A DNA stretch of 64,000 nt, taken from assembly GCF_030052815.1 (NCBI RefSeq), contig NC_079505.1, positions 64,961,399-65,025,398 of the forward strand. The letters run 5' to 3'. The DNA comes from Hevea brasiliensis. Lineage: Eukaryota > Streptophyta > Magnoliopsida > Malpighiales > Euphorbiaceae. The notes under the pieces are model-generated. The model worked only from the letters and a program-made list of their open reading frames with translations. It made no database searches and had not been told where the DNA came from. Position 1 is the first letter of the stretch. Every line of letters begins with the position of its first letter. Below are positions 1,295-59,499 of the stretch, one piece after another. The position numbers were made by a program, and so were the translations under genes.

Positions 1295-1463
1295 TGTAAC
1301 ATCCTCACTGTAGCAATTTCGTACATTTTACTGTTTCGGTGATTGGTGTAGGTCCGGACAGCTAGAACGTCTGGAAAAATATTTTGACTAAAGTGAAGAG
1401 TCATAAATAACTCAAATAATAATAAGAAAAATTTAAAAAAAAATTTAGAAATAAAATACAACC

Positions 1464-1510
1464 AAGTTAAATTAGCCGGTGCCCTAGCGATGGGTAACCC
1501 AGTGGGAAGT
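1464..1510 (+). promoter_or_regulatory. 5S rRNA-like block in SOLO-1
   Basis: Contains GTTAA, then AGCGATGGGTAACC, then TGGGAAGTT, in the order and spacing of the 3' half of plant 5S rRNA. It begins about 170 bp from the LTR start, in LTR sense orientation. Promoter activity is inferred only. Confidence 0.6.
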
Positions 1511-3390
1511 TGCGGTTTTCGCAGCTAGAGGCCCTAAACCCAGGGGAAAATTCATGAAATAATTTTTGAGACTCCAGAGAAGAGTCATTGAGGTTTCTAT
1601 GGCATTAGAATGCCAAGAAAAGGCTTAGAAAAATTTTTCGATTGGTACAGACGATTTTGGCTCAATAAGCCAAACGGAGGGCATTTTGGTCATTTCATCT
1701 TCAGAGATGATTTTTGACCGACTTGTCCAATTAAGTAAATAATTATTATCATCTAAAATATGAATAAATATTGCTGAAAACTGAATTGAAAATGGGTAGT
1801 AAAGAAAAGAAAAGAAAATAAAAGAAAATAGGAAATATGACATCACATGATGTCATTAGTTAGGTCTCCACCAATCACAACTCAACAAGCCAATTAAAAG
1901 GAGATAAATTAGACAAAAATTGACAAACAATCTGTATCTTCTCACCATGGGCAGCCGAACCAAAGAGAAAAAGAGAGGAAGACCACCATTAAAGCTCCAA
2001 ATGAGCTTGATTCCCTAGCCAACTACACCATAAAACCTCACCCTCTCTTCACAAAAAATTTCCCTTACCACTAGAGCAAGACTTGGGTAGCAATTAGAAG
2101 AAGAGAAAGTGGAAGAAAGTGAGGTGTGAACAAGCTTAGAAAATCACCAAAGAGGTTAGTGCCATATTCTTTGCTTTTACATCTTTCTAAACATGAATTT
2201 GAGCTAAGTTAAGTTGAAAATTTGATAAAAATTGAATTAATGAGGCATGATTATGTTCCATGAAATTTTGGCAGCCTTGACATGAGTTAGGGTTAGGAGA
2301 ATTCTTTGATTTAAAGTGACATATTAGCTGCCCCTAGTATAAATTATATGATTAGTATAGCAAATTAGGAGTAAGATGCATGAATTTGAGGCTTGGTCAA
2401 TTAGGGTTAGGGTTTTGAAATTTAATTTTGGTGGTGGATGAAAATGGACATAAACTAAAGTTGTAATGGTCAATTAGTGACCATTTGGCTATGTTTGATT
2501 AGGAAGTGAAGTGATTTGTGCCATGGGAATTGAGGTTAAGTATGCTGTCCAGTGTGCACTGCAGGTGTGGACATGAGTCCAGCATGTTTGGGCAGCTGTA
2601 ATTTGAGTTGTGTAGGTTCAATTGGTGCAAGGCAAATTGAACATGAAATTAGACACATAATGGCACAACTTTGATGGAGGAAACCTATCCAGAAAACAAA
2701 CTTAGGATGCCCTAAAAATTGACCAAATCTGGGTGACTTACATTCTGCCTGGGCAATATGACCAAATGAATAGTATTCTTTCATTTGATCATAACTCAGT
2801 GTAGAAAGGTCCAATTGACCTGAATTTTTGCCAATAGAAATTTGAGACATAGACCTACAACTTTCATGAAGAAAACAAAATCAAATTTTGACTATAACAT
2901 GTCTAAAAACTGACCTGCAATCAGTGTATAAAAACTGCAGAATTGATTCTACCCAGAAATTCTGGAAAAATTACAATCTGGCCAATTATGGTTTTTAGGC
3001 CATAACTTGAGTTACAAAACTCCAAATGGAGTGATTTAAAAAAAGAAATATAACTAGACACAATAAGAAACAACTTTGATGAAGAACATTTGGCCAAATT
3101 CTCACTGTAAAATGGCCTAATAGAACAGTGAACTCTAGCACCAAAAACTGAAATTTCTGATTTATTTTCCATTGGTTAGAAGTATGGATTGGTAACTAAT
3201 GCCAACACTTTTGGGAACCAAAATGTGGTAAATCTACGTGATTAAAACTCATGTAACTATTATATATGAGAAAGTCAATATTTTGACTTAAATGACCAAA
3301 TGAATAGTAACCTTACATGTTAAGTATAAATATTCAAGAAATAACTTTGTAATATGCCCTAGTAGGCCTAATGTGATTGGTTTGGATAGG

Positions 3391-13000: not shown

Positions 13001-13836
13001 AATCACTTCACCAAGGTCTAAAATCAAACTTTAATGTTGGTGGTTAGGGTTTTTGTGGTGAGGAAGGAAGGAGAAATCAAGCTTTTAAGGGTTAAAAATG
13101 GTGGAATTGTGAGAGAATTAAAGAAAAAGAGAGAGTGGCGGAAATCCATGAGAAAGAAGACAAAAATATAAATTTCTTTATTTTGTTATTTTATGTGTAG
13201 TTATCCCAAATTGACTTAGTCAAATTAAGTAAATAATTGATAATTATTTATTGAGTCATACATGATGTCATCCTTGATGATGTCATTTTTCTTTATTTTC
13301 TTTTCTTTTCTTTTTCCTTTCTTTTTCCTCACTTCTTTAATTTAATTCTATATTCCGAAATTTTCATTTCTCTGATTTTATTGGACAGTTAAGTCAGGAG
13401 TCAGCTCTAGGGGTGAATTGACCAAATTGCCCCTCGCCGATTCGACCCGGTTTGCAAATAATTCAATATTTCTTCCGGATCCCTGACCTAATTATTTGAC
13501 TTGCTTAACAATTCTTTTCTGTGATTTTCTCTTTTCCACTGTGTTCGTAATAGTCCTAAGGACTGTAGCATCACATTTTTCAGTTCGAAATTTGAGTTTA
13601 GACTGACCTCGCAGTCACTTCCTGGGAAGGTCACCTATCGCTGTGACTCTTGGCTCATTTAACATTTTATATTATGTTTTTCCTATTTTTACTTTTCTAT
13701 CTGATAATCACTATTTATTTTCGATCAGGGCTTTTCTAGGTGTCTTAAACATAGTTCTAATCCTCTTAATTGTCCGGACTGATACCGGTCACCGGAACAG
13801 TAACATATACGATGCTATGCATATAGGGGTGTTACA
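10044..13836 (-). repeat. 3' LTR of element A (group I)
   Basis: About 3.79 kb. On the plus strand it starts TGTCACACCCTACT and ends GGGGTGTTACA. Pairs with 16866-20644 over its whole length with scattered substitutions and small indels. Confidence 0.93.
13617..13663 (-). promoter_or_regulatory. 5S rRNA-like block in 3' LTR of A
   Basis: The sense (minus) strand contains GTTAA, GCGATAGGTGACCT and AGGAAGT in 5S order, starting 173 bp from the LTR start. One substitution falls in the GATGGGTGACCT core. Confidence 0.55.
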
Positions 13837-13860
13837 ATTCTCTCCCCCCCCCCCCCCTTC
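13837..13860 (-). other. Polypurine tract of element A
   Basis: The plus strand carries 14 consecutive C at 13844-13857 next to the LTR end, so the sense strand is a G-rich purine tract abutting the 3' LTR. This is the expected start point of second-strand synthesis. Confidence 0.75.
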
Positions 13861-15848
13861 CCTTAAAATAATTTCGTCCTCGAAATTTTACCTGGTATCA
13901 GTCTCTGAACAGTTGTGGGTGCTGTCTCCTCATGTCCTATTCACGCTCCTAAGTAGCTTCCTGGCCTGAATGATGGTTCCTTAGCACTTTAACCAATACT
14001 ATTTACTCATCGATTGCTCACCTCGTGTGCCAAGTTTTTTATGAGCTTCTGTCATAAGTTAGATTCAAATTCATTTCAATTTTAGAGGTAAGCAAATCTG
14101 TGTGCTAGTGGATCCACTCTTTCTAGGACCCCGTATGATCCTATGGGTGAGAACTTAGTTTTACTCTTTTCTTATCAAATCTCTTGATCATTTGATGCAA
14201 CGTTCAGTTTAGTTTAGAATATTTTAGTCTTTTCTTGCTGTTGCTTTAGCAATTATTTTCCTTTGTAGTCTTTTTTTTTTTTTTAAATGACCTTGTTGGT
14301 CATATATGAACTACTTATCTCTTTCTTGGCCATAGGTCTATAACCATTATCTTACCATCTCCATTTATGACCAAGGCCTATGTGCCAATCTTGTTTGCTT
14401 TTGTTTAACTTATTTCCTTCTTAATAAAATAGTTCGGGATATCGTTACGCGTCTTAAGTAGGTTGTTTGCCCTGGTGGCAATTCCTCATCTAGTGCTTTT
14501 CTCATTTCTTACTGTTCTATTTGTTTTTTTTTTCCACAGCTTAACTTTAATTATTTTATTCCTCAATCTTATCTTCTTCCTTAACTTGACTGTCGAGTCA
14601 TAATTTAGCACCTCTTATCATCCCTAATAAATCCACTATACTTCAATATTACTTTGATTTGGTCCTCTGACCATTTTAGTCAACACTTTAACTAATATTC
14701 ATAACGTTTCTTTATTACATTTGTACCAACTATTCTAATTTTTACTTCCACAACTCTTTTATCTATCAATATTCTATAGCTTATTTTTCGCTGGTTTACG
14801 ATCATTACCCTTTTTTTTTCAACCATAAACAATTCTTTAATCTTAAGAAGGGAGTCTACCAGACTCTCCTGTTTCCCATGCTATTCAAAAGTTTCGCTTT
14901 CATTCTAATCTAATCCTTATGATCCACACAATAAAATTATGCTCTTCCTAAAGAATACCTGGCCAACTAGTTCCTATCGAATTACTGTTATCAGTAGAAT
15001 ATCATTTCTTAACTGTTTTATAAGTTATAATTGTCATCCATAGCATCCTGTCTCTTCTAGGGGAACAAAATTATATTTTGTGTCTTACTGCTACACAAAT
15101 AGAATACTGTTCCTTACTAAACTTTGAGCAAAAGATCCATTGCAATACCAAAACAACTATAAACCCCATATCGGAGACTGGATGACTTAGCCCTATAGGT
15201 GTTATTTTTAAATTTTTACCATGCTAAAATCTCTAGTCCCATAACAATTCTTGATGTATTGTAATTCATGCTAGGGTAACGGAGTCTTTAACTCTCACTA
15301 CCTTGCAACCATGATCTTTTGATATTCTAATTATAGAGTTTTAAATCCCGAATGAGGATTTTCAAACTCAGTTCTAGTAATAAAACTCTATTATGGTATA
15401 TTTGTACCAGAGCTAAAGTCATTTATAACTATTCTTATCCTTATGTACTATTGGGTAGTACGTAGCTATACACAATAAATCTCAAGTCAGTACTGTAATC
15501 TGCAGCTTACAGCACAAATATCAAGAATATTGCATAGTTACTACGATACATTCCAATAGATCAAACTTCCCTATGTCTTATTTCTTTCAAATCCACTAAT
15601 ATCTTAAACTTATTTTGATTATGGTACTTACTGACATCTATCAACAGTAGTACCTTTACTTCCATCTTGGGCAAATATATTGCTATAAATTACTTTTTGG
15701 TCCTCTTGCCTTACCTAATTAGGCTTACTAATTAACTTTATAATTTATCATAGTCTAGGAGATGTCTCTCACTAGAAACTTTTCCAAAATTAATTCCAAT
15801 CACGCTTATTATCGCAATTCTTATCCTAAAAGACTAATTACTAACACA
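13861..15848 (-). other. Non-coding internal region of element A
   Basis: No ORF worth reporting. 13861-14170 is a decayed copy of the pol 3' end and downstream sequence: it aligns by eye with the same place in element B (26750-27110), including a TTACCTGGTATCA segment. The rest, 14170-15848, has no protein similarity that I recognise. Its reverse complement at about 14900-15560 aligns with element D at about 32455-33060, sharing for example GTGCTGTAAGCTGCAGA and GTTACCCTAGCATGA. Confidence 0.7.
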
Positions 15849-16674
15849 TTAAAATTTATCTCCATGCAAGGGAATAGCAGTAGAACATATAATTTTAGCA
15901 TTAGCATATAAACAAGTAGAGCCGGAATCAAATAGTACATAATTATTCCTTTCATAAGTTAAGAACATATCGGCAACTACATCTGAAGTCTCTACTTCTT
16001 CCCCTCGATGCATGGCGTTCCCTCTTTCTAATGTATTCCTCTGCTCGGGTTGGTCCATTGTGCGAGGATTACCCGAAGTGTTGTCTCTACTTCTGCCTCT
16101 ACCCCTACTGACTATTAATGAGCCTCTAAAATCAGAACCTTGGACTAATTCCTCTGGTGTATTATGTGGCATAAATCGACGTGCGCTAGTACAATCTCGG
16201 GCGAAATGTCCAATTCCACCACAATTGAAGCAGGCTCCAGTGACCCTATGGCAAATACCCCCATGAAATTTTCCACAAACGTCACAGATACGGATAGGGT
16301 AGGAACTTCTGGTTCTTTGAGGAATGGTTCTTGATTGCTTCCGCCCTGAAGATCCGCCTCTGTCATACTTAGGAGCTCGGGGTCCCTCAAAATCTTTTCT
16401 CTTTCCCAAATTACTACTCCAACTTTGACCGATGGGTTTCCCACTTTTCTCTTTTTTCATGCTGCTCTTGAGGGGGTTGGGTTTGTACTTAGGCCTGGGC
16501 TGATAGATTATCAGCCATTTGCTGAAAGAACATGGCCATCTGCTGGGCCATTTGTGCAGTAATTTGTATAGGAGGGACTGGTGCAGTTGGACCTCCAACG
16601 CTCAGCGAAACTGGGGCCTCTCCTTGTACGTTAGCTGTATCAAACTGCTCTACCGTTTTATCCCCCTTGTCCAT
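15849..16674 (-). pseudogene. gag fragment with zinc knuckle and start of protease (element A)
   Basis: Starts at the ATG at 16672-16674. The first 60 residues (MDKGDKTVEQFD ... MFFQQMADNLSAQ) match the gag N terminus of element F. The capsid domain is missing: the frame ends at 16489, and a second frame (16598-15849) continues directly into the basic C-terminal region. That frame carries two knuckle-like segments, CDVCGKFHGGIC and the canonical CFNCGGIGHFARDC (C-x2-C-x4-H-x4-C, near 16240-16200). The frame ends about 30 residues after a retropepsin-type VLFDSGS motif, well short of a full protease. A product could keep RNA binding but not form a shell. The frameshift near 16500 and the capsid loss make it non-autonomous. 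Confidence 0.8.
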
Positions 16675-16845
16675 ATCTATTCGCAGGATTTTTTTTATTT
16701 ATTTCCTGTACAACCAACACAAGGAGATTTCTCTCCGTTAGTTCATATTTATGATGTAAATGTACTATATGTATCAAACATTAGAGCAGTTGTACTTATC
16801 GAAAAATATTTCTAATTCACAGTTCAAAATTTACTTTAAAAACTA

Positions 16846-16857
16846 GCTCTGATACCA
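16846..16857 (-). other. Primer binding site of element A (initiator tRNA-Met)
   Basis: The plus strand reads GCTCTGATACCA, so the sense strand is TGGTATCAGAGC, complementary to the 3' end of initiator tRNA-Met. It lies 8 bp from the 5' LTR and fixes the element's orientation as minus. Confidence 0.9.
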
Positions 16858-16865
16858 CTAAAACA

Positions 16866-19800
16866 TGTCACACCCTACTCCTCGTAATATGTAACATGCT
16901 CCCGTAGTACACCTAATGAATTACCGTACTTCGCCTACCGGTAATCCATTAAATATACTACAAGGGATTTTAAAATAATTTTCGTTCATTTTTAAATTGG
17001 TAGGTAAATTTTTTTTTTCAGATTTTAAAAACCTTTATTTAAAGTCCAAACATAAATTAAATTTTTAGATATTTAAAATCTACTCAATTTTTATAAAAGT
17101 TTCGAAAGAGTGCCGTCTGTATTTTGAGAAAACAGTTCTTCAAAACTTGAAAATAAAGACACTCCCAATATTTTTCTCAATCACAAGTCCATTATTCAAT
17201 CTCATTTCACAAATCAACACAAGCAACTCAATACACAGTTTAAATTAAATCAAACATTGAAACCTCTCATTAAGATAACAAAATTAATATTTACATTCAT
17301 GGGATCATAAAAAATTTAGTAGTGCAAAACTTTATAAATACATAAAATCTCAAGATAACCTTATAATAATTTGTAGTTCATTACAATCCAAAAATATATT
17401 ACAAAAGAGTTGGTACAACTGCTCAAAGTAAATTTCATACATACAATTACAGAATTACATCAAAATCTAAAGGACAAGGGTATACCTATGATATACCCGA
17501 AGATAGTCTCACTATGCCTTTTAGTAATCTTGCTTAGCTGCTTTATATTTTCTTTCACCTGCGACAGCATACAAAGCTATCGCTGAGTGGTGAACTCAGT
17601 GGTGCACAAACTAATAATTTAAAACTTAATACAAGTTATGCTTAATAATTCATAACAAATAAAAATTTAAAATTTCTAAATTCTTCAAAATTCATAACAT
17701 TTAGAAATCAATATTTTCATTCATGTAAATTATTCATTTGAATAACATTTTGATCAAATAGTAATTATTTATCTACGTTTCTTTTAAATCCAGAAAAAAT
17801 CAAAAATATTTTGAATCACTAACAATTTATTTATTTCAATCACAATTTATCAAACTATGCATAATTTAAAGGGCGTTGCCAACAATTCATACAGTTGAAC
17901 CCATGACCCAAAATTCAAATAGATGTCGCGTTGTACACCATGACATTTCATACTCTCCTAATAATCGAGGCTAAAAGGGAGGAACAAAGACTAGCTAGTA
18001 TATATGAGTACTCATTCAAACTCTTCTCCAACTGGCAAGCCAGAGAGGAAGAAACTCGCCCCATCTAGTGGAGGAGATATCTCACTAGACAAGATAATGA
18101 GAATTCACAACATATTTTGCCATGTCAACTGTGGTTTCAAATCATATTCAAAACAATTTCTATTTACAAAGTGTTTACAAATCATCAACATATTTAATCA
18201 TCATAAATTCATGCTCAAGGTTGGCAACACATCAAACTTAAAATTTACAATCCTCAAAACCATGCAATAAATCTTTAAATGCATAAGAAAATTTACATTT
18301 AATTTATACAATTTCATTTAAAAAATTAAAACTCTTAACACAACAAAATTATAAATCATAAAATAAACGTGTTCAAATCAATTTAGAAGTGAAAAGTAAC
18401 AAAATAGTTAGTTGTGCACAAACCTTAAGCGAGTCGCTTCTTGGCTTTGACTCGATTCCTCGGGTTCTTTCCCGGTGTTCTTTTCAACTGAAACACACAG
18501 TTTTACAGTGTTTCAGTATCATAACTCATCGTAAATCCAAAAATAAATTCAAATTCACTTATACCTAGCTTTAATATGCTAAACTTGGCGTTCTTTAAAT
18601 TTTGTATTTCGAGATTACTATTCACGATACTATTCAAGTTAATTTATTAACTTTCTAAGGCTTAATAGGTATGGGAATTTCAACTTCACCCACATACCAC
18701 ATTTTGGTTACTAAATTTGTTGGTTTTGGTTGTTTACTCAAATTCTAAGTCTTTTAGGTAAATTTACAAATTTTCAGTTTTGGGTGTCTTATTTTGCACC
18801 GTTCTATTGGCCATTTTACTGTTAGAATTTGGCTAAGCTTTCTTCATAGAAAATATTCTCTATTGTCTTAAATTTATTCTCTTTTTTGAATCACTCCAAT
18901 TGGAGTTTTGTAGCTCAAGTTATAGCCATTTGAATTATGGCTGCCGGATTGGACTTAACCCAGATTTCTGGGCACCAAACTGGTTCTGGCAGTTTTAAGT
19001 CACCAAATTTGGGTGGCCAAATGACTTGGTTAAGGGTATAATTTGGGTTTGTGTTCTTCATAAAAGTTTTAGGTCTATATCTCAGCTTTTCACAGGTAAA
19101 ATTGCAGGTCATTTAGGCCTGCCTAGCCCAAGTTATGGTCAAATGAACAAACACTGTTCATTTGGTCATTTTTGTACAGGTTAGATTGCCTAATTTCGGG
19201 TTTGGCTAATTTTTTCACTATGCTATGGTCACTTTCTGGGCATGATTCCTAAATGAGAAATGTTCCATTTTGTGTCTATTTTCATTCTCAATTGGCCTCA
19301 TACCAATTGGACTTGTAAATTTTTAGTTTTGGTCCCTGAAGGGGACCTTGGTCCTGCTGCCTGCAGTATGACCCTAAGCAATCCGAATTTGCATTTGGTT
19401 CCAACACTTATAACATACTCCAATTGGTCACAAATGACCATTTCTCAGCTCAAACTAGGTTAAACATACCATTTAACATATTCTCATATTTTTGTCTTCC
19501 AAAACCCTAGGTGCCAAACCCTAATTTTCATGCTTAGCTCAATTCATGCAATTTAAACATACAAATCACCTATACAACATTAATTCACCAAGATTTTATG
19601 TTTAATCTAACTAAACACCATCAAACTCTAGGGTACCATGGCTGCTGAAATTTTCTACTCATCATGCATGCAAGATTATTTTCATTTTCTTCACAATTTC
19701 CATGCATCTCAACTAAATTTCAAGTAGTATTTAAAGATTTAAAACCAATTTATACATACCTTGATTTATGGATTCTCTAACTCTCCAAGTTTCCTTTTTT

Positions 19801-20644
19801 TCTTCTTCTTTTTGTTACTAATCACTCTACCAAGATCTAAAATCAAACTTTAATGTTGGTGGTTAGGGTTTTTATGGTGAGAAAGGGAGGAGAAATCAAG
19901 CTTTTAAGGGTTAAAAATGGTGGAATTGTGAGAGAATTAGAGAGAAAGAGAGAGTGGCAGAAATCCATGAGAAAGAAGACAAAAAAATAAATTTCTTTAT
20001 TTTGTTATTTTATGTGTATTTATCCCAAATTGACTTAGTCAAATTAAGTAAATAATTGATAATTATTTATTGAGTCATACATGATGTCATCCATGATGAT
20101 GTCATTTTTCTTTATTTTATTTTCTTTTCTTTTTCCTCACTTCTTTAATTTAATTCTATATTCCAAAATTTTCATTTCTCCGATTTTATTGGACAGTTAG
20201 GTCAGGAGTCAGCTCTAGGGGTGAAATGACCAAATTGCCCCTCGCCGGTCCGACCTGGTTTGTAAATAATTCAATATTTCTTCCGGATCCCTGACCTAAT
20301 TATTTGACTTGCTTAACAATTCTTTTCTGTGATTTTCTCTTTTCCACTGTGTTCGCAATAGTCCTAAGGACCTCAGCGTCACATTTTCCGGTTCGAAATT
20401 TGAGTTTAGACTGACCTCGCAGTCACTTCCCGGGAAGGTCACCCAACGCTGTGACTCTCGGCTCATTTAACCTTTTATATTCTGTTTTTCCTATTTTTAC
20501 TTTTCTATTTGGTAATCACTATTTATTTTCGATCAGAGCTTTTCTAGGTGTCTTAAACATAGTTCTAATCCTCTTAATTGTCCGGACTGATACCGGTCAC
20601 CGAAACAGTAACATATACCAGGCTATGCAAATATGGGTGTTACA
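16866..20644 (-). repeat. 5' LTR of element A (group I)
   Basis: About 3.78 kb, the partner of 10044-13836. It contains a 5S-like block, a TATAAAAGG motif just upstream of that block on the sense strand (about 20470-20480), paired TGACATCA motifs near 20085-20106, and the perfect 10-bp-stem hairpin CAAATGAACA/TGTTCATTTG at 19140-19164. No protein-coding function is supported for its ORFs. Confidence 0.93.
20425..20471 (-). promoter_or_regulatory. 5S rRNA-like block in 5' LTR of A
   Basis: The sense strand reads, in order, GTTAA, CCGAGAGT, TGGGTGACCT and GGGAAGT, collinear with plant 5S rRNA, 173 bp from the LTR start and directly after a TATAAAAGG motif. Confidence 0.65.
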
Positions 20645-21208
20645 GTGGGATCAATTTTTATTGAAGTGATCTAGGGTTTTTATGGTGAGAAAGGGTGGGA
20701 ATTTAAGCTTGGAAGTTTGAAAATTGGAAGAAGAACTCTTCCATGGTGGTGCGGCTGGTTGAGGAAGACAATCAGAATTTGTTTTCTCATTTTACTCATT
20801 TTTATCTCTTTTAATAAGGTTTTTAAGTATGTGTCACAATGTGATTGGGTGGAGAGTTTTTAATGACATCATAGTGATGTCATAAGTCCATTTTAACTCA
20901 TTTTCTTTTCTTTTCTTTTCTACTTATTTTCAATTTAATTTATAGTAATATTTATTCATATTTTATGTCATAATAATTATTTACTTAACTGGACAAGTCG
21001 GTCAAAAATCATCTACGAAGACGAAATGACCAAAATACCCTCCGTTTGGCTTATTGAACCAGAATTGTCTGTACCGATCGAAAAAAATTTTTAAGCCTTT
21101 TCTTGGCATTCTAATGCCATAGAAACCTCAATGACTCTTCTCTGGAGTCCCAAAAATTATTTTATGAATTTTCTCCCAGGTTTAGAGCTCCTAGCTGCGA
21201 AGACCGCA

Positions 21209-21253
21209 ACTTCCCACTGGGTTACCCATCGCTAGAGCACCGGCTCATTTAAC
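21209..21253 (-). promoter_or_regulatory. 5S rRNA-like block in SOLO-2
   Basis: The sense strand has GTTAA, AGCGATGGGTAACC and GTGGGAAGT in 5S order, 171 bp from the LTR start. Confidence 0.6.
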
Positions 21254-21424
21254 CTGGTTGTATTTTATTTCTAAAATTTTTCCTTAATTTTTCTTACACT
21301 TATTTGAGTTATTTATGACTCCTCACTCTAGTCTAAAAATTTTTCTAGACGTTCTAGCTGTTTGGACTAACACCGGTCACTGGAACAGTAGAATGTACGG
21401 AATTGCTACAGTGAGGGTGTTACA

Positions 21425-26100: not shown

Positions 26101-26732
26101 AGACCAAAAAATCAATTTAATCAAATTATTAATTATGGGATTTATGGCATCATGCATGATGTCATGCATGATGTCATCTTCCTTCACTTTTTCATTTTCT
26201 CTTTTTTTTTTCATTTATTTTTCTATTAGTTCTTTAATTTAATTCTCGATTCTGAAATTTTCTTTTCTCCGATTTTATTTGACAGTTAGGTCAAGAGTCA
26301 GCTCTCGGGGTCAATTGACCAAATTGCCCATTGCCGGTTCAACCCGGTTTGCAAATAATCCAATATTTCTTCCGGCTCCCTGACTTAATTATTTGACTGG
26401 CTTAACAGTTCTTTTTCGTGATTTTCTCTTTTCCACTGTGTTTATAATGGTCCTAAGGACCGCGGCGCCACATTTTACGATTCGAAATTTGAGTTTAAAT
26501 TGACTTCGCAGTCGTTCCCGAGAAGGTCACCCATCGCTGTGACTCTCGGCTCGTTTAACTTCTTATGTTCTGTTTTTCTTATTAATACTTAACTAATTGG
26601 ACATTACTAATTATTTGTGTTTATGGCTTCTCTAGTTGTCTTAAGTGTGGTTCTAATCCCCTTAATTGTCCAGACCAACACCGGTCACCGGAATAGTGAA
26701 ATATACCAGGTTATACAAATAGAGGTGTTACA
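23187..26732 (-). repeat. 3' LTR of element B (group I)
   Basis: 3,546 bp. On the plus strand it starts TGTCACACCTTACCCC and ends GAGGTGTTACA. It is the same family as the LTRs of F. It contains a repeated CATGCATGATGTCAT motif near 26145-26175 beside a T/C-rich tract. Confidence 0.92.
26515..26562 (-). promoter_or_regulatory. 5S rRNA-like block in 3' LTR of B (best match)
   Basis: The sense strand has GAAGTTAA, CGAGAGT, GATGGGTGACCT and GGGAA in this order. Plant 5S rRNA has the same words in the same order, with gaps differing by only 1-5 nt. It begins about 170 bp from the LTR start. GATGGGTGACCT covers the intermediate element and the start of box C of the 5S internal promoter. Confidence 0.7.
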
Positions 26733-26779: not shown

Positions 26780-29607
26780 TCAATCTCTGAACAACTGTGG
26801 GTGCTGTCTCCTCATGTCCTCCTCTCGTTCCCAAGTAGACTCCTGGCCCGAATGATGGCTCCACAGCACTTTTACCAACAGTATCTGCTTGTTCCGTAGC
26901 TGCTTCACCTTATAAGCTAGAATCACTATGGGTTCTTCCTCATATGTGAGGTCTGGATTCACTTCAATTTCTTCCACTGGTAGTACATGAGATGGGTCTG
27001 ATCGATACCTCCTCAACATAGACACATGGAAGACATTATGTATCTTCTCCAACTCTAGAGGTAGTGCCAACCGATATGCCAAAGGACCCACTCTTTCCAG
27101 AACCTCATATGCCCAGTGAAACGAGGACTCAGTTTCCCCTTTCTGCCGAATCTCATAATTCTCTTCCAAGGAGAAACTTTGAGGAAAACTTTCTCACCCA
27201 CTGCATACTCAATATCCCTTCTTTTCAAATCAATGTAAGACTTTTGACGGTCTGATGCAGTCTTAAGTCGATCTCTGATCACCCTGATTTTCTCCTCAGT
27301 TTGCTGAACAATTTCGGGTCCAATCATCTTTCTTTCACCCACGTCATCCCAACACAATGGGGTTCTACATTTTCTGCCATACAAAGCTTCATATGGAGGC
27401 ATCCCAATGCTTGATTGATAGCTGTTGTTGTAAGCAAACTCAATCAAAGGCAAGTATGTATCCTAATTGCCCTCAAATTCAATCACATAAGCCCGTAGCA
27501 TGTCCTCCAAGATCTGAATTACCCTCTCAGACTAGCCATCTGTCTGTGGGTGGAATCCAGTACTGAAGTTCAATCTAGTTCCTAGGGCTCTCTGAAGACT
27601 ACCCCAGAATCTAGAAGTGAACCTAGGATCTGCATGCGTCACGATGGATACTGGCACTCCATGCAATCTCACAATCTCATCAATGTACAACTTGGCCAAT
27701 CTTTCTAAACTGTAGTCCATCCGGACTGGCAGAAAATGAGCAGACTTGGTCAGTCTGTCAACAATTACCCATGCTGCATCATGACTCTTCTGTGTCCTCG
27801 GAAGTCCCATCACAAAATCCATCATTATTCTCTCCTATTTCCATTCTGGTATTGGTAGTGGATGTAACAACCCAGCGGGTACTTGATGCTCTGCCTTCAC
27901 TTGCTGACAAGTTAGGCATTTAGAAACAAACTCTGCCACATTTCTTTTCATACCCATCCACCAGTAATGCTCCTTTAGCCCTCTATACATTTTTGTGCCA
28001 CCAGGGTGCATGGCAAAAGGAGACTCATGTGCTTCCTTCAAAATGATCTTCCTCAATTCAACATCATTAGGAACACACATTCTGCCCTGGTGTAACAGTA
28101 GACCATAATCTCTTATTGAAAATTCTGGTCTCTTGCCCTGTCGGACTTCTTCCAATAGCTTCTGATACCTTTCATCATTCTGAGTAGCTATTCTAATCTG
28201 ATTAATCAACACTGGCTGTACATGCCATGCAACTGTTGTCTGCCCATCATCATTAATCTCTAAGCTGGCATGAAATGATCTTAACTCATGTACCAAAGAC
28301 AAAGGAGTAACCCGTAGACTTGCCATAGTCTTGCGACTTAAGGCATCAGCCACAACATTAGCTTTCCCTGGCTGATAGTCTATCAGACAATCATAGTCTT
28401 TTATCAACTCTAACCATCTCCTCTGTCTCAAATTCAGCTCTTTCTGGGTGCTCAAATACTTCAAACTCTTATGATCTATGTAGATGTAACACTTTTCCCC
28501 ATATAAATAGTGTCTCCAGATCTTAAGAGCGAACACAATGGCTGCAAGCTCCAAATCATGTGTTGGATAGTTCCTCTCATGCGGTTTTAGCTGGCGTGAT
28601 GCATAGGCAATGACATTTCGATCTTGTATCAGTACATAGCCTAACCCATTGTGAGAAGCATCACTATATGCTGTGTATTCTTTACCCGGGGTAGGTAAAG
28701 TCAGGACTGGAGCTTCAGTCAAACATCTCTTCAATTCATCAAAACTCTGTTGGCATTTATCCGTCCACTGAAATTTCACATCTTTCCTAAGCAGCTTGGT
28801 CAATGGAGATGCCAACATGGAGAATCCCTTCACAAATCTACGGTAGTATCCAGCTAAACCCAGAAAACTGCGAATCTCTATGATATTTCTGGGTGGCCTC
28901 CAATTAAGGACAGCTTCAATCTTACTTGGATCTACCTTAATGCCCTCTTTTGATACTACATGCCCCAAGAAAGATATTTCTTTTAGCCAAAATTCACACT
29001 TCGACAATTTGGCTTATAGCTGTTTCTCCCTCAAAGTCTGTAGTACAATCTGCAGATGTCTATCATGCTCTTTTGCATTCCTCGAATAGACCAATATATC
29101 ATCAATAAATACCACAACAAACTGGTCGAGGTATGGTCTGAAGATAGTGTTCATCAGATCCATAAAAGCAGCCGGAGTATTAGTTAACCCGAATGGCATA
29201 ACCAAAAACTCATAATGGCCATAACGGGTTCTGAAGGCAGTCTTAGCAATACTCTGCTCTTGTACTTTCAATTGATAATAACCTGATCTCAGGTCAATTT
29301 TGGAGAACACAGCTGCACCCCTTAACTGATCAAACAAGTCATCAATGCGGGGCAATGGATATCTATTCTTTATTGTCACCTTATTCAACTGTCGATAGTC
29401 AATGCATAACCGGAGAGTGCCATCCTCTTTCTTTACAAACAACACCGGCGCTCCCCAAGGTGACACACTAAGGTGGATAAAGCCCTTATCAAGTAATTCT
29501 TGCAACTGCACTTTCAATTCTTTCAATTTTGCAGGTGCCATTCTATATGGCGTTATGGAGATTGGGTCCATACCAGGCATAACATCAATATCAAACTGCA
29601 CCGAAAA
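26780..29607 (-). pseudogene. pol remnant of element B: RT, RNase H, integrase, chromodomain
   Basis: Reads leftwards from 29601. Reverse transcriptase: [25 protein letters not shown] with the first catalytic Asp, and the FIDD active-site box at 29109-29098. After a stop near 29014 comes a 390-residue ORF (29007-27835) with RNase H residues in YSDAS, DLEL, YIDHK and ADAL (positions 116, 153, 178, 221), then the integrase H-x5-H-x29-C-x2-C zinc site (His328, His334, Cys364, Cys367). The integrase core follows in 27825-27532 (MDFVMGLP, ADPRFTS) and continues to LED. The final frame carries a chromodomain-type block (EEEPIVIL ... LRNKQILLVKVLW). Stops replace Trp at 27835 and Gln at 27532, and there are frameshifts near 27100. 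Inactive; gag and protease missing. Confidence 0.92.
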
Positions 29608-29622
29608 ATACCACTAAAACAT
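29608..29622 (-). other. Primer-site shred between two deletion breakpoints (element B)
   Basis: ATACCACTAAAACAT equals the primer-site/LTR junction of element F (about 56049-56063). It is stranded between a deletion that removed gag and protease and another that removed most of the LTR. Confidence 0.75.
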
Positions 29623-29629
29623 ACTTCTT

Positions 29630-30019
29630 CCCGGTTTGTAAATAATCCAATATTTCTTCCGGCTCCCTGACCTAATTATTTGACTGACTTAACAGTTCTT
29701 TTTCGTGATTTTCTCTTTTCCACTGTGTTTATAATGGTCCTAAGGACCGCAGCGCCACATTTTACGATTCGAAATTTGAGTTTAAATCGACTTCACAGTC
29801 GTTCCCTAGAAGGTCACCCATCGCTGTGACTCTCGGTTCGTTTAACTTCTTATGTTCTGTTTTTCTTATTAATACTTAACTAATTGGACATTACTAATTA
29901 TTTGTATTTATGGCTTCTCTAGTTATCTTAAGTGTGGTTCTAATCCCCTTAATTATCCAGACCGACACCGGTCACCGGAACAGTGAAATATACCAGGCTA
30001 TACAAATAGGGGTGTTACA
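29630..30019 (-). repeat. 5' LTR remnant of element B
   Basis: 390 bp matching 26343-26732 of the left LTR end to end. This is the promoter-side end of the 5' LTR; the remaining ~3.15 kb is deleted. Confidence 0.9.
29802..29849 (-). promoter_or_regulatory. 5S rRNA-like block in 5' LTR remnant of B
   Basis: The sense strand has GAAGTTAA, CGAGAGT, GATGGGTGACCT and GGGAA, about 170 bp from the LTR start. It survives although nearly all of the LTR is gone. Confidence 0.68.
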
Positions 30020-31322
30020 TGATTCGACCGTTGGATCGATGATCTGAGACTGCCATTGAACTTAAGGCAATGAAAGCTTCGAGACGGGTTGACCTTGCTT
30101 CAATCGGACCTCGTTTGAAAGAGGCGATCATCAAAAGGTCTAGATCGCTTAGTGAGAATTTTGACTTTTTGATGCCCGAAAATTAAATATAATTATATGA
30201 TAATTATTAATAATTTTTTAGTTTTGTTTAGATGTAATCGGATTGATGTTAGCTCACCGGTGCCCAGGACCGAGTTTTAGGCCTGATCTGGCTGTCTGGC
30301 GGCCCATCCTAGAGCATAGTCAATATTATAGTCGATCCTAGCATTTTTAGACGTTTGGACACATTCTAGGTAGCAGAATTTACAAAGGTTGTCTTAAATT
30401 TAAGTTGTGTAATTTTTACCTTGATTAAGCTAGTTGATAAATCTATAAAATATTCCTGGCTTAGTAAAATTAAGTAAAATAATTTTCATTAATATAAGGA
30501 TGATGTAGAGGACCTCCAAGAATATTTTTATAATTTTTAAAGTACTGAAAATAAATATTTGGAATGTAGAGGAGTTAGGAATCCGAGCTGGAGTTTGGAG
30601 AATTGGACTTAGATTAGGATTTTTGTTGGCCCCGGATGGGCATTTTAATTGTTGTTATGAGCCTGAGGCCCTATGTGTTATTGTTGGTTCATTTTTGCTT
30701 ACAGGGGGTTAGGTCCAATCATAGGGGAGACTTTGCTAAAATTTCGGTAAGACCTTAGGATTTCTTTTAATCTATAGTTTCAATTAATTATTTAATTTTG
30801 TCAGTCTTTTGATAGAGGTCAGTGTGTATATTTAGGTGATTGGAATTGACCATCTTCTCCTTCCAACCAGACCAACTATAGTCTAGTCGAGCAGTCTGTG
30901 AGTTGAATATTGATTATTTTTACAATTTCAATATTAATTATATATCTGGGATGCTCATGCATTTTATAAATATTTAATTATAGACATGTATAGTTAATAT
31001 ATTAGGGGTGTTTTGGTTGCTGCATATTTAATTATTATTATTATTATTATTTATGATTGACGCCCTAAGGATAATTTGAAGCTCTGTGTGTGTGTTAACG
31101 TGAGTATGGTATGGATATGGATATGGGTAGGATGGGTAATCGCAGTTGGAGCTTGACTCGCTGGGACTTGATCCTTATAGATGGATAAGTTGGGGTGAGT
31201 ATTGCTTTGAGTTTATCTTGCTAAACCCCGCACTTGGATTATTAAGCGAAAGTCCAATTTGAGTTCATCTCGCTGGCAGGTATTAGATTAAGAGAGTTGT
31301 ATAGGGTATCAGCTTCTATATA

Positions 31323-31330
<8 letters not shown>

Positions 31331-31401
<71 letters not shown>
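31331..31401. repeat. TA dinucleotide microsatellite
   Basis: About 35 uninterrupted TA units in the LTR of element D. Confidence 0.97.
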
Positions 31402-43853: not shown

Positions 43854-44176
43854 TGTAACGGTCAGGCTCCAACCACTAGAGGAATTGTCCGCTTTGGCCA
43901 TAAGCCTCACGGTTTTATCCCATCGGTAGAATGGAAAACTTTCTAGGAGGTCACCCATCCTAGGATTTCTCTTAAGCAAGCACGCTTAACCCTGGAGTTC
44001 TTCCAACTCTCCAGGCCATTACACCAAAAGGTGCCTCTAGTGATTAGTTCCCCCATTTTATATATCATTACTTTCCACTCCTAATATGATGTGGGACGTG
44101 TTTCCCATCTTTCAGATAGCTTTTCGCCTTGTCCAACGGAATCACTGGGGCACTGCCTTAGGGGCTTTATGGCCCA
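43854..44176 (-). repeat. Cassandra-like LTR, left unit (minus)
   Basis: The plus strand starts TGTAACGGTCAGGCTCC, and the unit's 5' end is near 44176. It acts as the 3' LTR of a minus-strand element whose short internal part is 44177-44230. The 5S segment lies about 176 bp from its 5' end. Confidence 0.75.
43934..44000 (-). promoter_or_regulatory. 5S rRNA-derived segment, left Cassandra LTR
   Basis: The sense (minus) strand has GTTAAGCGTGCTTG, TAGGATGGGTGACCTCCT and AGAAAGTT, matching the 3' half of plant 5S rRNA with few changes. Box A, intermediate element and box C are all recognisable. Confidence 0.88.
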
Positions 44177-44230
44177 CCAGCTTTTGCCACAAGTGTCCTC
44201 ACTTGTCACACCGTACTGAGGGAGCTTTCG

Positions 44231-44242
44231 GCTCTGATACCA
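44231..44242 (-). other. Primer binding site of the minus-strand Cassandra unit
   Basis: The plus strand GCTCTGATACCA is TGGTATCAGAGC on the sense strand. The LTR 3' end expected to its right is replaced by the 5' start of the inverted right LTR (TATAACCC). Confidence 0.85.
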
Positions 44243-44244
44243 AT

Positions 44245-44568
44245 TATAACCCATAAGGCCCTAAGGCAATGCCCCAGTGATTCCATTGGATGCGGTGAAA
44301 AGCTCCCTAAAAGATGGGAAACACGTCCCACATCAGAATGGGAGTGGAAATTAATGATATATAAAATGGAAGAACTAATCACTAGAGAAGCCTTTTGGTG
44401 GAATTGCCTGGAGAGTTGGAAGTACTCCAAGGTTAAGCGTGCTCAGTTGAGAAAAATACTAGGATGGGTGACCTCTTGGGAAGTTCTCCATTCCACCTAT
44501 GGGACAAAACCGTGAGGCTTCAGGCCAAAGTGGAAAATGCCTCTAGTGATTGGAGCCTAACCGTTACA
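44245..44568 (+). repeat. Cassandra-like LTR, right unit (plus)
   Basis: 324 bp, from TATAACCCATAAGG (probably an original TGTAACCC) to AACCGTTACA, inverted relative to the left unit. It has TATATAAAATGG near 44352 and a 5S segment about 178 bp from its start. It is followed at 2 bp by a primer site and gag leader, so it sits exactly where element E's 5' LTR should be. Confidence 0.75.
44421..44489 (+). promoter_or_regulatory. 5S rRNA-derived segment, right Cassandra LTR
   Basis: Contains ACTCCAAGGTTAAGCGTGCT, then ATACTAGGATGGGTGACCTC, then TTGGGAAGTTC, i.e. plant 5S rRNA from about the middle to box C. The 5' half of 5S is not recognisable, so it is not a 5S gene. Confidence 0.9.
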
Positions 44569-50983: not shown

Positions 50984-51153
50984 TTGTGTTCTGTTTTTCT
51001 TATTTATACTTAACTATTTGGCAATTACTAATTATTTGTGTTCAGGGCTTATCTAGGTGTCTTAGATGTGGTTCTAATCCTCTTACTTATTCGGACCAAC
51101 ACCGGTCACCGGAATAGTGAAATGTACTAGGCTTTGCAAATAGGGGTGTTACA

Positions 51154-51240: not shown

Positions 51241-54200
51241 GCTGTCTCCTCATGTCCTCCTCTCGTTCTCAAGTAGCCTCCAGGCCTGAATGATGGTTCC
51301 ACATCACTTTCACTAACGGTATTTGCTTGTTCCGTAGCTACTTCACCTCATAAGCCAGAATCTCTATGGGTTCTTCCTCATATGTGAGGTCTGGATTCAT
51401 TTCAATTTCCTCCACTGGTAGTATATGAGATGGGTCAGATCTATATCTCCTCAACATCGATACATGGAAGACATTATGTATCTTTTTCAACTCTGAAGGT
51501 AGTGCCAAACGATATGCCAAAGGAACCACTCTCTCCAGAACCTCATATGGCCCAATGAAATGAGGACTCAGTTTCCCCTTTCTGCCGAGTCTCATAATTT
51601 TCTTCAAAGGGGAAACCTTGAGGAATACTTTCTCACCCACTGCATACTCAATATCTCTTCTTTCATATCAATATAGGACTTCTGACTGTCTAATGCAACT
51701 TTGAGTTGATTTCTAACCCATCTGAATTTCTCTTCAGTTTGCTGAACAATTTCTGGCCCAATCAACTTTTTTTCACCTACTTCATCCCAACACAAAGGAG
51801 TTCTACACTTCTTGCTATACAAAGCTTTATATGGAGGCATCCCAATGCTTAATTGGTAGCTATTGTTGTAAGCAAACTCAATCAAAGGAAAGTGTGTGTC
51901 CCAACTGCCTTCAAACTCAATCACACAAGCCCGTAGCATGTCCTCCAATATCTGTATTACTCTCTCAAATTAGCCATCTGTCTGTGGGTGGAATGTCGTG
52001 CTAAAGTTCAATCTAGTTCCTAAGGCTCTGTGAAGACTACCCCAGAATCTAGAAGTGAACCTAGGATCTCTGTCTGATACGATGGATACTGACACTCCAT
52101 GCAGTCTCTCAATCTCATCTATATATAACTTGGCCAATCTTTCTAAACTGTAGTCCACCCGGACTGGCAGAAAATGTGCAGACTTGGTTAGTCTGTCAAT
52201 AATAACCCATACTGCATCATGACTCTTCTATGTCCGCGGAAGTCCCATCACAAAATCCATAGTTATTCTCTCCCATTTCCATTCCGGTACTGGTAGTGGA
52301 TGTAACAAACCAGCTGGTACTTGATGCTCTGCCTTTACTTGTTGATAAGTTAGGCATTTAGAAACAAATTCTACCACATCTCTTTTCATACCCATCCACC
52401 AGTAGTGCTCTTTCAGCCCTCTATACATTTTTATACCACCAGGGTGCATAGCAAAAGGAGATTCATGTGCTTCCTTCAAAATGATCTGTCTCAAGTCAAC
52501 ATCATTAGGAACACACATTCTGCCCTGGTGTAGTAATAGACCGTCATCTCTCACTAAGAATTCTGGTTTCTTTCCCTGTCTGACTTTTTCTAAAAGCTCT
52601 GATATTTCTAATCATTCTGAGCAGTCATTCTGATCTGATCAATCAACACTGGCTGTACATGCCATGCAACTGTTGTCTGCCCCTCATCATTAATCTCTAA
52701 GCTGGCATGCAATACTCTCAATTCATGCAACATAGACAAAGGAGAAACCCGTAGACTTGCCATAGTCTTGTGACTTAAGGCATCAGCCACCACATTAGCT
52801 TTCCCTGGCTGATAGTCTATCATATAATTATAGTCTTTTATCAACTCTAACCATCTCCTTTGTCTCAAATTCAACTCCTTCTGAGTGCCCAGATACTTTA
52901 AACTCTTATGATCTGTATAGATGTAGCACTTCTCCCCATACAAATAATGTCTCCAGATCTTAAAAGCAAACACAATAACTGCAAGCTCCAAGTCATGTGT
53001 CGGATAGTTCCTCTCATGCAGTTTCAGCTGGCGTGATGCATATGCAATGACATTCCAATCTTGCATCAGTACACAACCTAACCCATTATGAGAAGCATCA
53101 CTATATACTGTGTATTCTTTACTCGGGGTAGGTAAAGTCAAGACTGGAGCCTCAGTCAAACACCTCTTCAATTCATCAAAACTCTGTTGGCATTTATCTG
53201 TTCACTGAAATTTCACATCTTTCCTAAGCAGCTTGGTCAGTGGAGATGCCAACATGGAGAACCCTTTCACAAAACGGCAGTAGTATACAGCTAACCTCAG
53301 GAAACTGCGAATCTCTGTTATATTTCTAGGTGGCTTCCAATTAAAGACAGCTTCTCTTTTGCTGGGATCTACCTTAATACCTTCTGCTGATACTATATGC
53401 CCCAAAAAGGATATCTCCTTCAGCCGAAATTCACATTTTGATAGTTTTTCATATAGTTGTTTCTCTCTCAAAGTCTGCAGTACAATGCGCAGGTGTCTAT
53501 CATGCTCCTTTGCACTCCTCAAATAAACCAATATATCATCTATGAATACCACAACAAACTGGTAGAGGTATGGTCTAAAGATAGTGTTCATCAGATCCAT
53601 AAAAGCAGCCGGAGCATTAGTTAACTCGAATGGTATGACCAAGAACTCATAATGGTCATAGCAGGTTCTAAAGGCGATTTTAGGAATACTCTACTCTTGT
53701 ACTTTCAACTGATAATACCCTGATCTCAGGTCAATTTTGGAGAACACAACTGCACCCCTCAACTGATCGAACAAGTCATCAATGTGGGGCAATGGGTATC
53801 TATTCTTTATTGTCACCTTATTCAACTGCCGGTAGTCAATACATAAACAGAGAGTGCCATCCTTCTTCTTAACAAACAACACTGGAGCTCCCCAAGGTGA
53901 GACACTAGAGCGGATAAAGCCCTTGTCAAGTAGCTCTTGCAATTGCACTTTCAATTCTTTCAATTCTACTGGTGCCATTCTATATGGCGTTATGGAGATT
54001 GGGTCCACACCAGGCATAACATCAATCTTAAACTGCACTTCTCTTTCTGGATGTAATCCTGGCAATTCATCAGGAAACACATTCGGAAAATCACAAATAG
54101 TAAGGATGTCCCTCAGTGCTGGACTCCCCACTTGGGTGTCTATCACATGTGCCAAGTATGCTTCACACCCCTTTCTAATCATCCTTCTGGCTAGTGCAAC

Positions 54201-54632
54201 CGAAATGATGTTTGATGGCAGTAACTACCTCTCCCTATGTATTACCACATCACTGTACAGAGGGAGATCAAAAGTGATTGTCTTCAGTCTACAGTCAATC
54301 ATGGCGTGATGTCTGGCTAACCAATCCATGCCCAAGATGATATCATAATCTCTGAAGGGCATTTCAATCAAATCTGATAGAAAAGTGTGTCCTTGGATCA
54401 CCAAAGGACAATCTCTATAGATTCTATTAACCTGGACCTCTTGTCCTAACGGACTAGTTACTAGCACTTCAAAATCCATTTTGGCACACGAAACCGCAAG
54501 TGAACTGACTATGCTAGCACTAACATATGAGTGGGTTGAACCCGGATCAAAGAGTACAAATACATCTTGATCAGAGATAGAGAATGTACTGGCTATCACA
54601 TCGGAAGTCTTAGCCTCTTTTCGCTGTCTCAT
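51241..54632 (-). pseudogene. pol of element F: protease, RT, RNase H, integrase, chromodomain
   Basis: Reads leftwards. Protease (54632-54225): FVLFDPGSTHSYV active-site region, ending in YDIILGMDWL. Reverse transcriptase (54182-53202): [25 protein letters not shown] and the FIDD box at 53546-53535. RNase H (53171-52608): YSDAS, DLEL, YTDHKSL, ADAL. Integrase zinc site (52554-52228) has [12 protein letters not shown], but the fourth ligand is changed (KCLTYQQ where B has KCLTCQQ). The integrase core (52158-51604) has RDPRFTSRFWG and LEDML. The chromodomain-type end (51640-51241) has TYEEEPIEILAYEV. Stops at 53691-53693 (Gln in B), 53202-53204 (Trp in B) and 51970-51972, plus frameshifts, make it inactive. 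Confidence 0.93.
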
Positions 54633-54819
54633 AGTGTAGACTCTGGCTGAAGCACTCCCTTGTGCTGACTGGCTAACATTACCCTGACTGCCAGAAGCAT
54701 TGCCTCTACCTCTGCCTCTTCCTCTGCTAACCGGTTGTGAACCTCTGGTAGCAGGACTCTGAATGGATCCTTCTGCAGTAGTAGGAGCTGGACCAAATCT
54801 AGGGGCACTGGTGCAGTCC

Positions 54820-55873
54820 TTAGCAAGATGGCCCTTGCCTCCACAATTAAAGCAAGCTCCTACTGCCTAATACATTCTCCCCCATGAATCTTGCCGCATG
54901 TCGCACAGGGGTGGGGAGGATGTGAACCCCTGGTCGACTGCTGACCAGATCTAGGGGGTCTCTGTCCAGAGAATCTGCCCATTCCAAACCTTCCACCTCT
55001 ACCTCTGCTTAGTCCCCCAAATTTCTTCTTCTTTCTAGATGTACCACTGGGACCTTGCTCTACTAACTTTTCCCCTTTTATCTTTATCTGATTTTTCAGT
55101 CTTCTTAGCTTTCTCTTTCACTGGTGTCGCTTCTAATTCAATTCTTTCTAACTCAAGTGCCTGAGAGATGAGCTCAAAGAAGTTACTGTGTCTGAATCCC
55201 ACTACTTGCATCCTCAAACTGGGCTTCAAATAGGTCTCAAATCTCTCGCACCTTTCTTTACTGGTAGATAGGAGACTCCCAGCATAGTGGCTTAAGCGGG
55301 AGAACTCCCTCTCATACTCTGCCACTGATCTATTGCCTTGCTTCAGACTCAGAAATTCTTATAGTTTCTGATCCACATATGCATCTGGGACATATTTCTG
55401 TCTGAACTCTTTGATGAAGTCGTCCCAGGTCAATACTGGCGGTTCAGCCAAGCTATCGGGGATGGTCTTCCACCAGTCATATGCATCCCCTTGTAACAAA
55501 GATACCGAATACTCAAACTTTAGTTTATCCAGGCAGTGCAGTTTCTTGAATACTCTTTCCATTCTCTCTAACCACTGCTCTGCCTCTAAAGGGTCTACTG
55601 TACCCTTAAATTCTATCGCCCATACTTCAATAGCTTGTCATACTGTCTAGCTGGAGGCTGTAGTTGTACCACAGGTGTCTGAAGTAGAGCTTGAGTAGGC
55701 ATGCTTCCAGCCATTTATTGAAACATTGCCGCCATCTGTTGTTCGAATTGTGCAGGAAACTGCGGCATTTGTGGGGCTGGTGCCATCGACCCACTGATAT
55801 TTTGGAGAGCTGAGGCTTCCCCTTGGGCCTCAACCTTTACAGACTGCTCAACAGAGCGATCCCCTTCTTCCAT
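54820..55873 (-). pseudogene. gag of element F
   Basis: ATG at 55871-55873, 169 bp inside the primer site, reading MEEGDRSVEQSVKVEAQGEA and then FEQQMAAMFQ. The capsid region is split: 55562-55359 has KLKFEYSVSLLQGDAYDWW and FIKEFRQKYVP; 55325-55035 has MAEYEREFSRLSHYA and LELERIELEA, followed by a Lys-rich segment. Near 54860-54820 lies the zinc knuckle CFNCGGKGHLAKDC (C-x2-C-x4-H-x4-C), preceded by the CATCG-x3-HGGEC-like motif also seen in element A. Several frameshifts and stops. Function in intact relatives: shell formation and RNA packaging. Confidence 0.88.
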
Positions 55874-56041: not shown

Positions 56042-56053
56042 GCTCTGATACCA
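56042..56053 (-). other. Primer binding site of element F (initiator tRNA-Met)
   Basis: The plus strand GCTCTGATACCA lies 8 bp from the LTR start, the same spacing (CTAAAACA) as in element A. Confidence 0.92.
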
Positions 56054-59000: not shown

Positions 59001-59499
59001 TGAATTTAATTCTACATTTAAAAATTTTCTTTTCTGTGATTTTATTAGACAGTTAGGTCAGGAGTCAGCTCTAGGGGTGAATTAACTAAATTGCCCCTCG
59101 CTGGTTCAATCCGGTTTGTAAGTAATTTAATATTTCTTTCGGATCCCTGACTTAATTATTTGACCTGCTTAACAATTCTTTTCTGTGATTTTTTCTTTTC
59201 CACTGTGTTCACAATGGTCCTAAGGACCGCAACGTTATATTTTACGGTTCGAAATATGAGTTTAGACTGACTTCGCAGTCATTCCCGAGATGGTCACCCA
59301 TCGCTGTGACTCCTGGCTCATTTAATTTCTTATGTTCTGTTTTTCTTATTTATACTTAACTATTTGGCAATTACTAATTATTTGTGTTCAGGGCTTATCT
59401 AGGTGTCTTAGATGTGGTTCTAATCCTCTTACTTGTCCGGACCGACACCGGTCACCGGAACAATGAAATGTACCAGGCTATGCAAATAGGGGTGTTACA
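56062..59499 (-). repeat. 5' LTR of element F (group I)
   Basis: 3,438 bp, uninterrupted. It contains a 5S-like block (59282), an ACCGGTCACCGG box near 59447, a TGATGTCAT motif beside a TTTTC-repeat tract near 58950-58990, and a CATTTACG-to-TTCATTTGG version of the hairpin near 58018. Confidence 0.95.
59282..59329 (-). promoter_or_regulatory. 5S rRNA-like block in 5' LTR of F
   Basis: The sense strand has ATTAAATGAGC, GGAGT, AGCGATGGGTGACCAT and CGGGAAT, collinear with 5S rRNA, about 172 bp from the LTR start. Confidence 0.6.

Follow-up and report, generated by a model that had tools for sequence, protein, structure and literature searches.

A 5S-like control-region block in the long terminal repeats of pol-bearing chromoviruses of Hevea brasiliensis

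Long-LTR Ty3/gypsy chromoviruses of Hevea brasiliensis carry, within their LTRs, a short block that resembles the internal control region of 5S rRNA genes. The window, that is, the whole stretch of 64,000 nt analysed here from a host genome of 1.88 Gb, is crowded with such elements. The original prediction had placed eleven sense-oriented 5S-like blocks in it, and all eleven were recovered where predicted, sense to the LTR and 166-179 nt into it at each of the 11 LTR starts of the window. These starts were located with an LTR-start profile (R2), which was built from the same 11 starts that it recovers. The blocks are given below with their scores against R1, a sequence-only profile made from the 11 window blocks alone; the LTR subfamilies, A to E, were assigned by eye from alignments.

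1461..1526, plus strand: 5S-like block, LTR subfamily A; R1 57.6 bits
13601..13668, minus strand: 5S-like block, LTR subfamily B; R1 64.6 bits; the LTR starts 64 nt after a chromodomain-region remnant
20409..20476, minus strand: 5S-like block, LTR subfamily B; R1 68.4 bits
21193..21258, minus strand: 5S-like block, LTR subfamily A; R1 57.4 bits
26498..26564, minus strand: 5S-like block, LTR subfamily B, the site at which the original prediction was made; R1 70.8 bits; best 5S alignment among the 11
29785..29851, minus strand: 5S-like block, LTR subfamily B, in a truncated LTR piece; R1 64.6 bits
38223..38289, minus strand: 5S-like block, LTR subfamily C; R1 52.2 bits
42192..42257, minus strand: 5S-like block, LTR subfamily A (divergent); R1 61.3 bits
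50653..50717, minus strand: 5S-like block, LTR subfamily A; R1 51.4 bits
50921..50985, minus strand: 5S-like block, LTR subfamily B, in an LTR piece behind a pol-bearing copy; R1 58.6 bits; the LTR starts 67 nt after a chromodomain-region match
59265..59331, minus strand: 5S-like block, LTR subfamily B; R1 68.6 bits

Box A is followed by box C in all 11 window blocks, with one or two mismatches (box A) and one to three mismatches (box C) to the published Cassandra boxes. Together with 15 blocks from 200 kb outside the window, one of them marginal (E 0.0089), a set of 26 was available for comparison. An LTR start with at most three mismatches to TGTAACACCC lies 165-181 nt upstream of the block in 24 of the 26, and the best candidates for the remaining two have four and five mismatches. 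Box A and box C are separated by 10-11 nt in 25 blocks and by 8 nt in one, compared with 18 nt in 5S, and box C has one additional base, in most cases C. In subfamily B the order is box A, intermediate element, box C and then GGGAA or a near variant; the intermediate element is found in all six window copies of this subfamily, three of which have an exact CGAGAG. In subfamilies A, C, D and E, both boxes are retained but joined by other linkers, and D has a partial intermediate element. The predicted coverage of the intermediate element and box C was thus seen throughout for box C, whereas a clear intermediate element is confined to subfamily B. The words of the subfamily B element do occur in 5S order, but between box A and box C the shortening relative to 5S amounts to 7-8 nt, against predicted spacing changes of 1-5 nt. 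The best copy (26498..26564) aligns to host 5S positions 39-101, so that the block spans the internal control region and more than the 3' half of 5S. The proposed collinearity with 5S was therefore upheld, while its restriction to the 3' half was not: box A is part of the match, which starts at about 5S position 39.

The LTRs that carry the block are about 3.8 kb long, and their 5' ends read TGTAACACCC or a near variant. In the element at 10044-20644, the LTR pair (10044-13836 and 16866-20644; about 3.79 kb) shows 95.3% identity over 3794 aligned positions. The interior of this element is only about 3 kb and holds a CCHC piece and a chromodomain remnant; it is a deleted, probably non-autonomous copy. 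Two primer-binding sites (PBS) of a type also common in other plant elements were matched exactly.

16846..16857, minus strand: primer-binding site TGGTATCAGAGC, exact match, after the 5' LTR of the 10044-20644 element
56042..56053, minus strand: primer-binding site TGGTATCAGAGC, exact match, after the LTR 59499-56061

Starts at 7356 and 33908 on the plus strand also open with TGTAACACCC, belong to a different repeat family and have no block; they are a natural negative control for it. An AT/TA simple repeat at 31316-31386 gave rise to a spurious mir-297 match.

The presence of the block in LTRs of pol-bearing chromoviruses, as the original prediction had it, is supported by the Pfam domains of two pol remnants and by the position of the LTRs behind the chromodomain region.

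26780..29613, minus strand: pol remnant (RT, RNase H, integrase zinc finger, SH3_Tf2-1, weak chromodomain; Pfam), directly upstream of the LTR starting at 26732
51338..54866, minus strand: pol remnant (CCHC, protease, RT, RNase H, SH3_Tf2-1; Pfam), upstream of the LTR piece starting at 51153

In the remnants beside block-bearing LTRs, RT (PF00078), RNase H (PF17917/PF17919), integrase (PF17921) and SH3_Tf2-1 scored above the Pfam cut-offs, and the chromodomain (PF00385) reached 22.1 bits against a cut-off of 25.1. Six block-bearing LTRs begin 47-67 nt after a same-strand match to the chromodomain region of the window: those of blocks 26498, 13601 and 50921 in the window and those of L018:5187, L026:4218 and L027:818 (the marginal block) outside it. 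The LTR of L028:1073 follows the chromodomain region at 279 nt. L013:3291 and window block 50653 lie behind another LTR start and were left out of the chromodomain-linked count. For the other 17 of the 26, the interval 100-1200 nt upstream of the block contained no chromodomain-region match. One of them, L028:7510, has an RNase H/integrase piece that ends 54 nt before its LTR start; another, L014:1777, is preceded only by a short piece of RT at a distance of 1189 nt from the block. Reverse transcriptase, RNase H, integrase, the PBS and long LTRs are all shared with known long-LTR plant Ty3/gypsy chromoviruses, as a chromodomain-like C-terminus may be, and from their sequence character these elements are putatively of the Tekay/Del type. 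Among the best 120 of 8000 scored protein homologues, those that name an organism are from plants; most name none.

To look beyond the window, 20 stretches of 10 kb (200 kb) from the same genome were sampled. They contained 14 blocks at E < 1e-7 and one at 0.0089 (L027). Among 14 LTR starts recognized by R2 in this sample, 13 have a block where one is expected, that of L027 being marginal. The exception is an LTR start at L013:3665-3733 that is without a block; another LTR begins about 210 nt into it. Twelve strong blocks in 18 arbitrary stretches amount to about one per 15 kb, which by extrapolation gives roughly 10^5 copies in the genome, an order of magnitude only, as the coordinates were arbitrary. 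When the 200 kb were ranked by 5S score, the top five places were all blocks, and the sixth was a block tied with two non-blocks. Scans of IMG/VR and GTDB genomes with block patterns or RT yielded nothing usable; these are viral and prokaryote collections and thus have no bearing on other plants.

The occurrence of a 5S-like block in these chromovirus LTRs is confirmed. The order of the motifs, a profile match to host 5S genes and a clean control all support a relationship between the block and the 5S internal control region. As an in-window yardstick for clearly 5S-bearing LTRs, we used a Cassandra-like inverted pair of LTR arms, which lies outside the chromovirus LTRs and is a better case than any in the original prediction, which had overlooked it.

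43854-44568: Cassandra-like inverted pair of 5S-bearing LTR arms
43854-44167, minus strand: first arm of the pair
44255-44568, plus strand: second arm of the pair
44231-44242, minus strand: PBS between the arms

The two arms are 86% complementary over 314 nt, and in both of them box A and box C are free of mismatches and 18 nt apart. A search for the Cassandra box A and box C pair, 0-30 nt apart with at most three mismatches in total, returned 13 places in the window, namely the two arms, ten of the 11 blocks and one other; 200 dinucleotide shuffles of the window gave a mean of 0.38 and a maximum of 3. At two mismatches or fewer, there were six (two arms and four blocks) against a shuffle mean of 0.02. 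In a scan of the window against a plant 5S gene, the top ten places were the two arms and eight blocks, with blocks 38239, 42208 and 50937 within the noise. Against the host's own 5S, the alignment proposed in the original prediction, the top seven places were the two arms and five blocks and a sixth block tied with one non-block, but the other five of the 11 were within the noise.

In the control with shuffled LTRs, aligned one LTR at a time to 5S, three of 11 exceeded all 1000 shuffles under one scoring scheme, whereas the others were reached by 2-30 of 1000; under a second scheme, four of 11 did so, and the others were reached by 1-26. In this test the row for 50937 scored a neighbouring block and not its own. 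Single LTRs are therefore weak evidence, and because the blocks share descent, they are not independent of one another. The Rfam 5S covariance model (RF00001), which the original prediction had suggested as a check, matched no LTR block in the window, even up to an E value of 10. Even the Cassandra-like plus arm reached 30.2 bits with this model, below its gathering score of 38. Conserved columns did not match 5S significantly more often (17 of 17 versus 13 of 15; Fisher test, P value 0.21). The idea that the blocks track the host 5S variant, an A at box A position 7, was dropped, as scores against host and generic 5S showed no consistent difference.

A link to 5S also came from the profile of the blocks taken together. 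R1 matched host 5S genes at E values of 1.6e-4 to 7.5e-3 (70 kb searched) and, with default filters and an E limit of 10, matched nothing outside LTRs except host 5S loci; a single host 5S gene scored 15.5 bits. Altogether 39 R1 matches fell in eight 5S-gene loci: eight coincide with Rfam 5S matches, a further 30 share their strand within the array stretches, though these were not inspected individually, and the last is an LTR-type block. The control profile R2, of near-equal length and taken from the LTR start, matched no host 5S gene; with filters off, its best score was 1.9 bits, on the other strand. The Cassandra-like arms of the window matched R1 only when filters were off, and then just around box C, at 11.0 and 8.8 bits. 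The host 5S gene at L002:1501-1619 has AGTTAAACGTGC as box A and AAGATGGGTGACC as box C; most plants have a G where this box A has an A. The LTR-type block just mentioned (L003:2639-2701, plus strand, 37.7 bits) lies inside the host 5S gene array on the strand opposite to the 5S genes, with no clear LTR start upstream.

Position, orientation, module order, the 10-11 nt spacing, retention in the genome sample and linkage to pol were observed directly. To account for them, we tentatively favour, at somewhat less than even confidence, a cis-element of the LTR that derives from the 5S internal control region, has kept its address through the split into subfamilies and still binds a 5S-type factor that aids LTR transcription. 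The block would descend from box A, intermediate element and box C of 5S and would not be a product of convergence. It would have been held about 170 nt into the LTR while the LTRs split into at least four subfamilies. Judged from the sequence, it may still be bound by TFIIIA and/or TFIIIC, and such binding could open or boost the LTR for transcription. The genomic RNA itself would most likely be made by Pol II, since the element is too long for what is expected of Pol III. Preservation of the order of modules, of their spacing and of their address is consistent with a DNA site. Weighing against this reading are the shortened box gap, the additional base of box C, the restriction of a clear intermediate element to subfamily B and a between-subfamily identity about equal to that of the preceding stretch. 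The interpretation given in the original prediction is partly supported.

Conservation along the LTR bears on both this reading and its nearest alternative. Between subfamilies, identity (in 20-column steps) is 0.57-0.69 in the block, 0.62-0.67 just before it, 0.35-0.59 after it and 0.81 at the first LTR island (CCGGTGACC). The island is more conserved than the block, which therefore ranks as one of two conserved segments and not as a uniquely conserved one. This more strongly conserved island, with its CCGGTGACC, lies at 26663-26731 on the minus strand and at equivalent places in other copies. The block might instead serve Pol II as an ordinary promoter-proximal LTR element, with its likeness to 5S due to convergence and its GGTGACC core possibly a site for a host DNA-binding protein, a reading that we regard as unlikely but worth weighing. 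The recurrence of GGTGACC, at about LTR +45 in the first island and again in the block, fits such an element, as do the lower conservation of the block relative to the island, a box spacing unlike that of 5S and the silence of Rfam. TATAWA is found within 70 nt upstream of the block in eight of 12 subfamily B copies and in none of 14 others, which speaks for Pol II in subfamily B; as a shared feature of the block, TATA was rejected, the eight cases among 26 all being in that subfamily. Convergence, however, would have to yield box A, box C and, in subfamily B, the intermediate element in the correct order, and R1 matches host 5S, whereas the profile of the GGTGACC-bearing island does not.

An improbable alternative is that the block is a decaying, functionless relic of an ancient 5S or Cassandra-like insertion in an ancestral LTR, carried along by element replication. 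The copies are divergent, those of subfamilies A, C and E are without a clear intermediate element, and the contrast in conservation with the preceding stretch is small, all of which would be expected of a relic. Against this, the box gap and the address are nearly fixed across subfamilies, and the letters of box A and box C are kept while the linker varies.

We consider it rather more doubtful still that the block is a working type-1 (5S-type) Pol III promoter, which would start about 49 nt upstream of box A and either produce a short sense LTR RNA or prime the element RNA as in Cassandra. All three control modules are present in subfamily B, and Cassandra and Ajax provide precedents (PMC10853983, PMC10886601). 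Each of the 14 non-B copies has a run of four or more T that begins 98-103 nt from the block start, for a predicted RNA of about 145 nt, yet in all 12 copies of subfamily B, the one that matches 5S best, no such run starts 85-115 nt from the block start. The T4-T5 run (for example, that of block 21193-21258, minus strand, and its equivalents) may be a Pol III terminator; as a Pol III signature, the asymmetry in T-runs was rejected as unspecific, the sense strand being richer in A than in T in six of six LTRs tested. The shortened box spacing, 10-11 nt in place of 18, counts against an unchanged 5S-type promoter, no 5S-like upstream box of the TATATA type was seen by eye in the block alignments, and the processivity of Pol III is held to be too weak for long elements (PMC10886601). 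Finally, an RNA-level mimic of 5S in the LTR transcript, binding 5S-binding proteins for export or packaging, is very improbable: beyond the 5S similarity itself and a hairpin that can be sketched manually for copies of subfamily B (26515, for example), the consensus fold has five pairs, no two-sided change and -2.3 kcal/mol, and the block alignment contained no covariation that would support a structure.

Promoters derived from 5S have been described in the LTRs of Cassandra and Ajax, both tiny and non-coding (PMC10853983, PMC10886601). In searches of the open-licence PMC literature, no description of a 5S-like block in gag-pol LTRs was found. The present blocks share with Cassandra a sense-oriented 5S box A and box C within the LTR, an identical 12-nt PBS (TGGTATCAGAGC) and, as read by eye in the window arms, a TGTAAC-type LTR start. 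Cassandra has no coding capacity, short LTRs and its 5S region at 25-75% of the LTR (PMC7215508, PMC10853983), with a box A-box C gap of 18 nt and a search range of 15-25 (PMC7215508). The chromovirus LTRs, in contrast, are about 3.8 kb long and pol-bearing, with the block about 5% into the LTR, a gap of 10-11 nt and no 70-bp 5S core. The Ajax TRIMs of nemerteans likewise hold only the promoter part of 5S (box A, intermediate element and box C) in the LTR, but they are non-coding animal elements of 421-434 bp (PMC10886601), unlike the pol-bearing plant elements described here. With the 5S rRNA gene itself, the block has in common the module order and many letters; it differs in lacking flanking 5S sequence, in its altered spacing and in the absence of an Rfam call.

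These comparisons bear on the mobility of Cassandra. Kojima 2024 (PMC10886601) states that nothing indicates which autonomous family moves it, and a 5S-control-region block in abundant pol-bearing chromoviruses offers a concrete candidate for that family. Such a block would also mean that potential 5S-factor sites are carried by a large share of a plant genome. The shared PBS and LTR start make the chromovirus lineage a candidate mover, weakly; the spacer before the PBS differs, and a partnership was left as speculation. It is a long shot that a dominant autonomous chromovirus lineage has a re-spaced 5S-type control region in its LTR promoter and was the source of the 5S promoter of Cassandra and/or its autonomous partner. 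If this were true, tens of thousands of sites or more would draw on host 5S transcription factors. In the window itself, a PBS-like stretch follows the plus arm of the Cassandra-like pair, and the pair looks rearranged.
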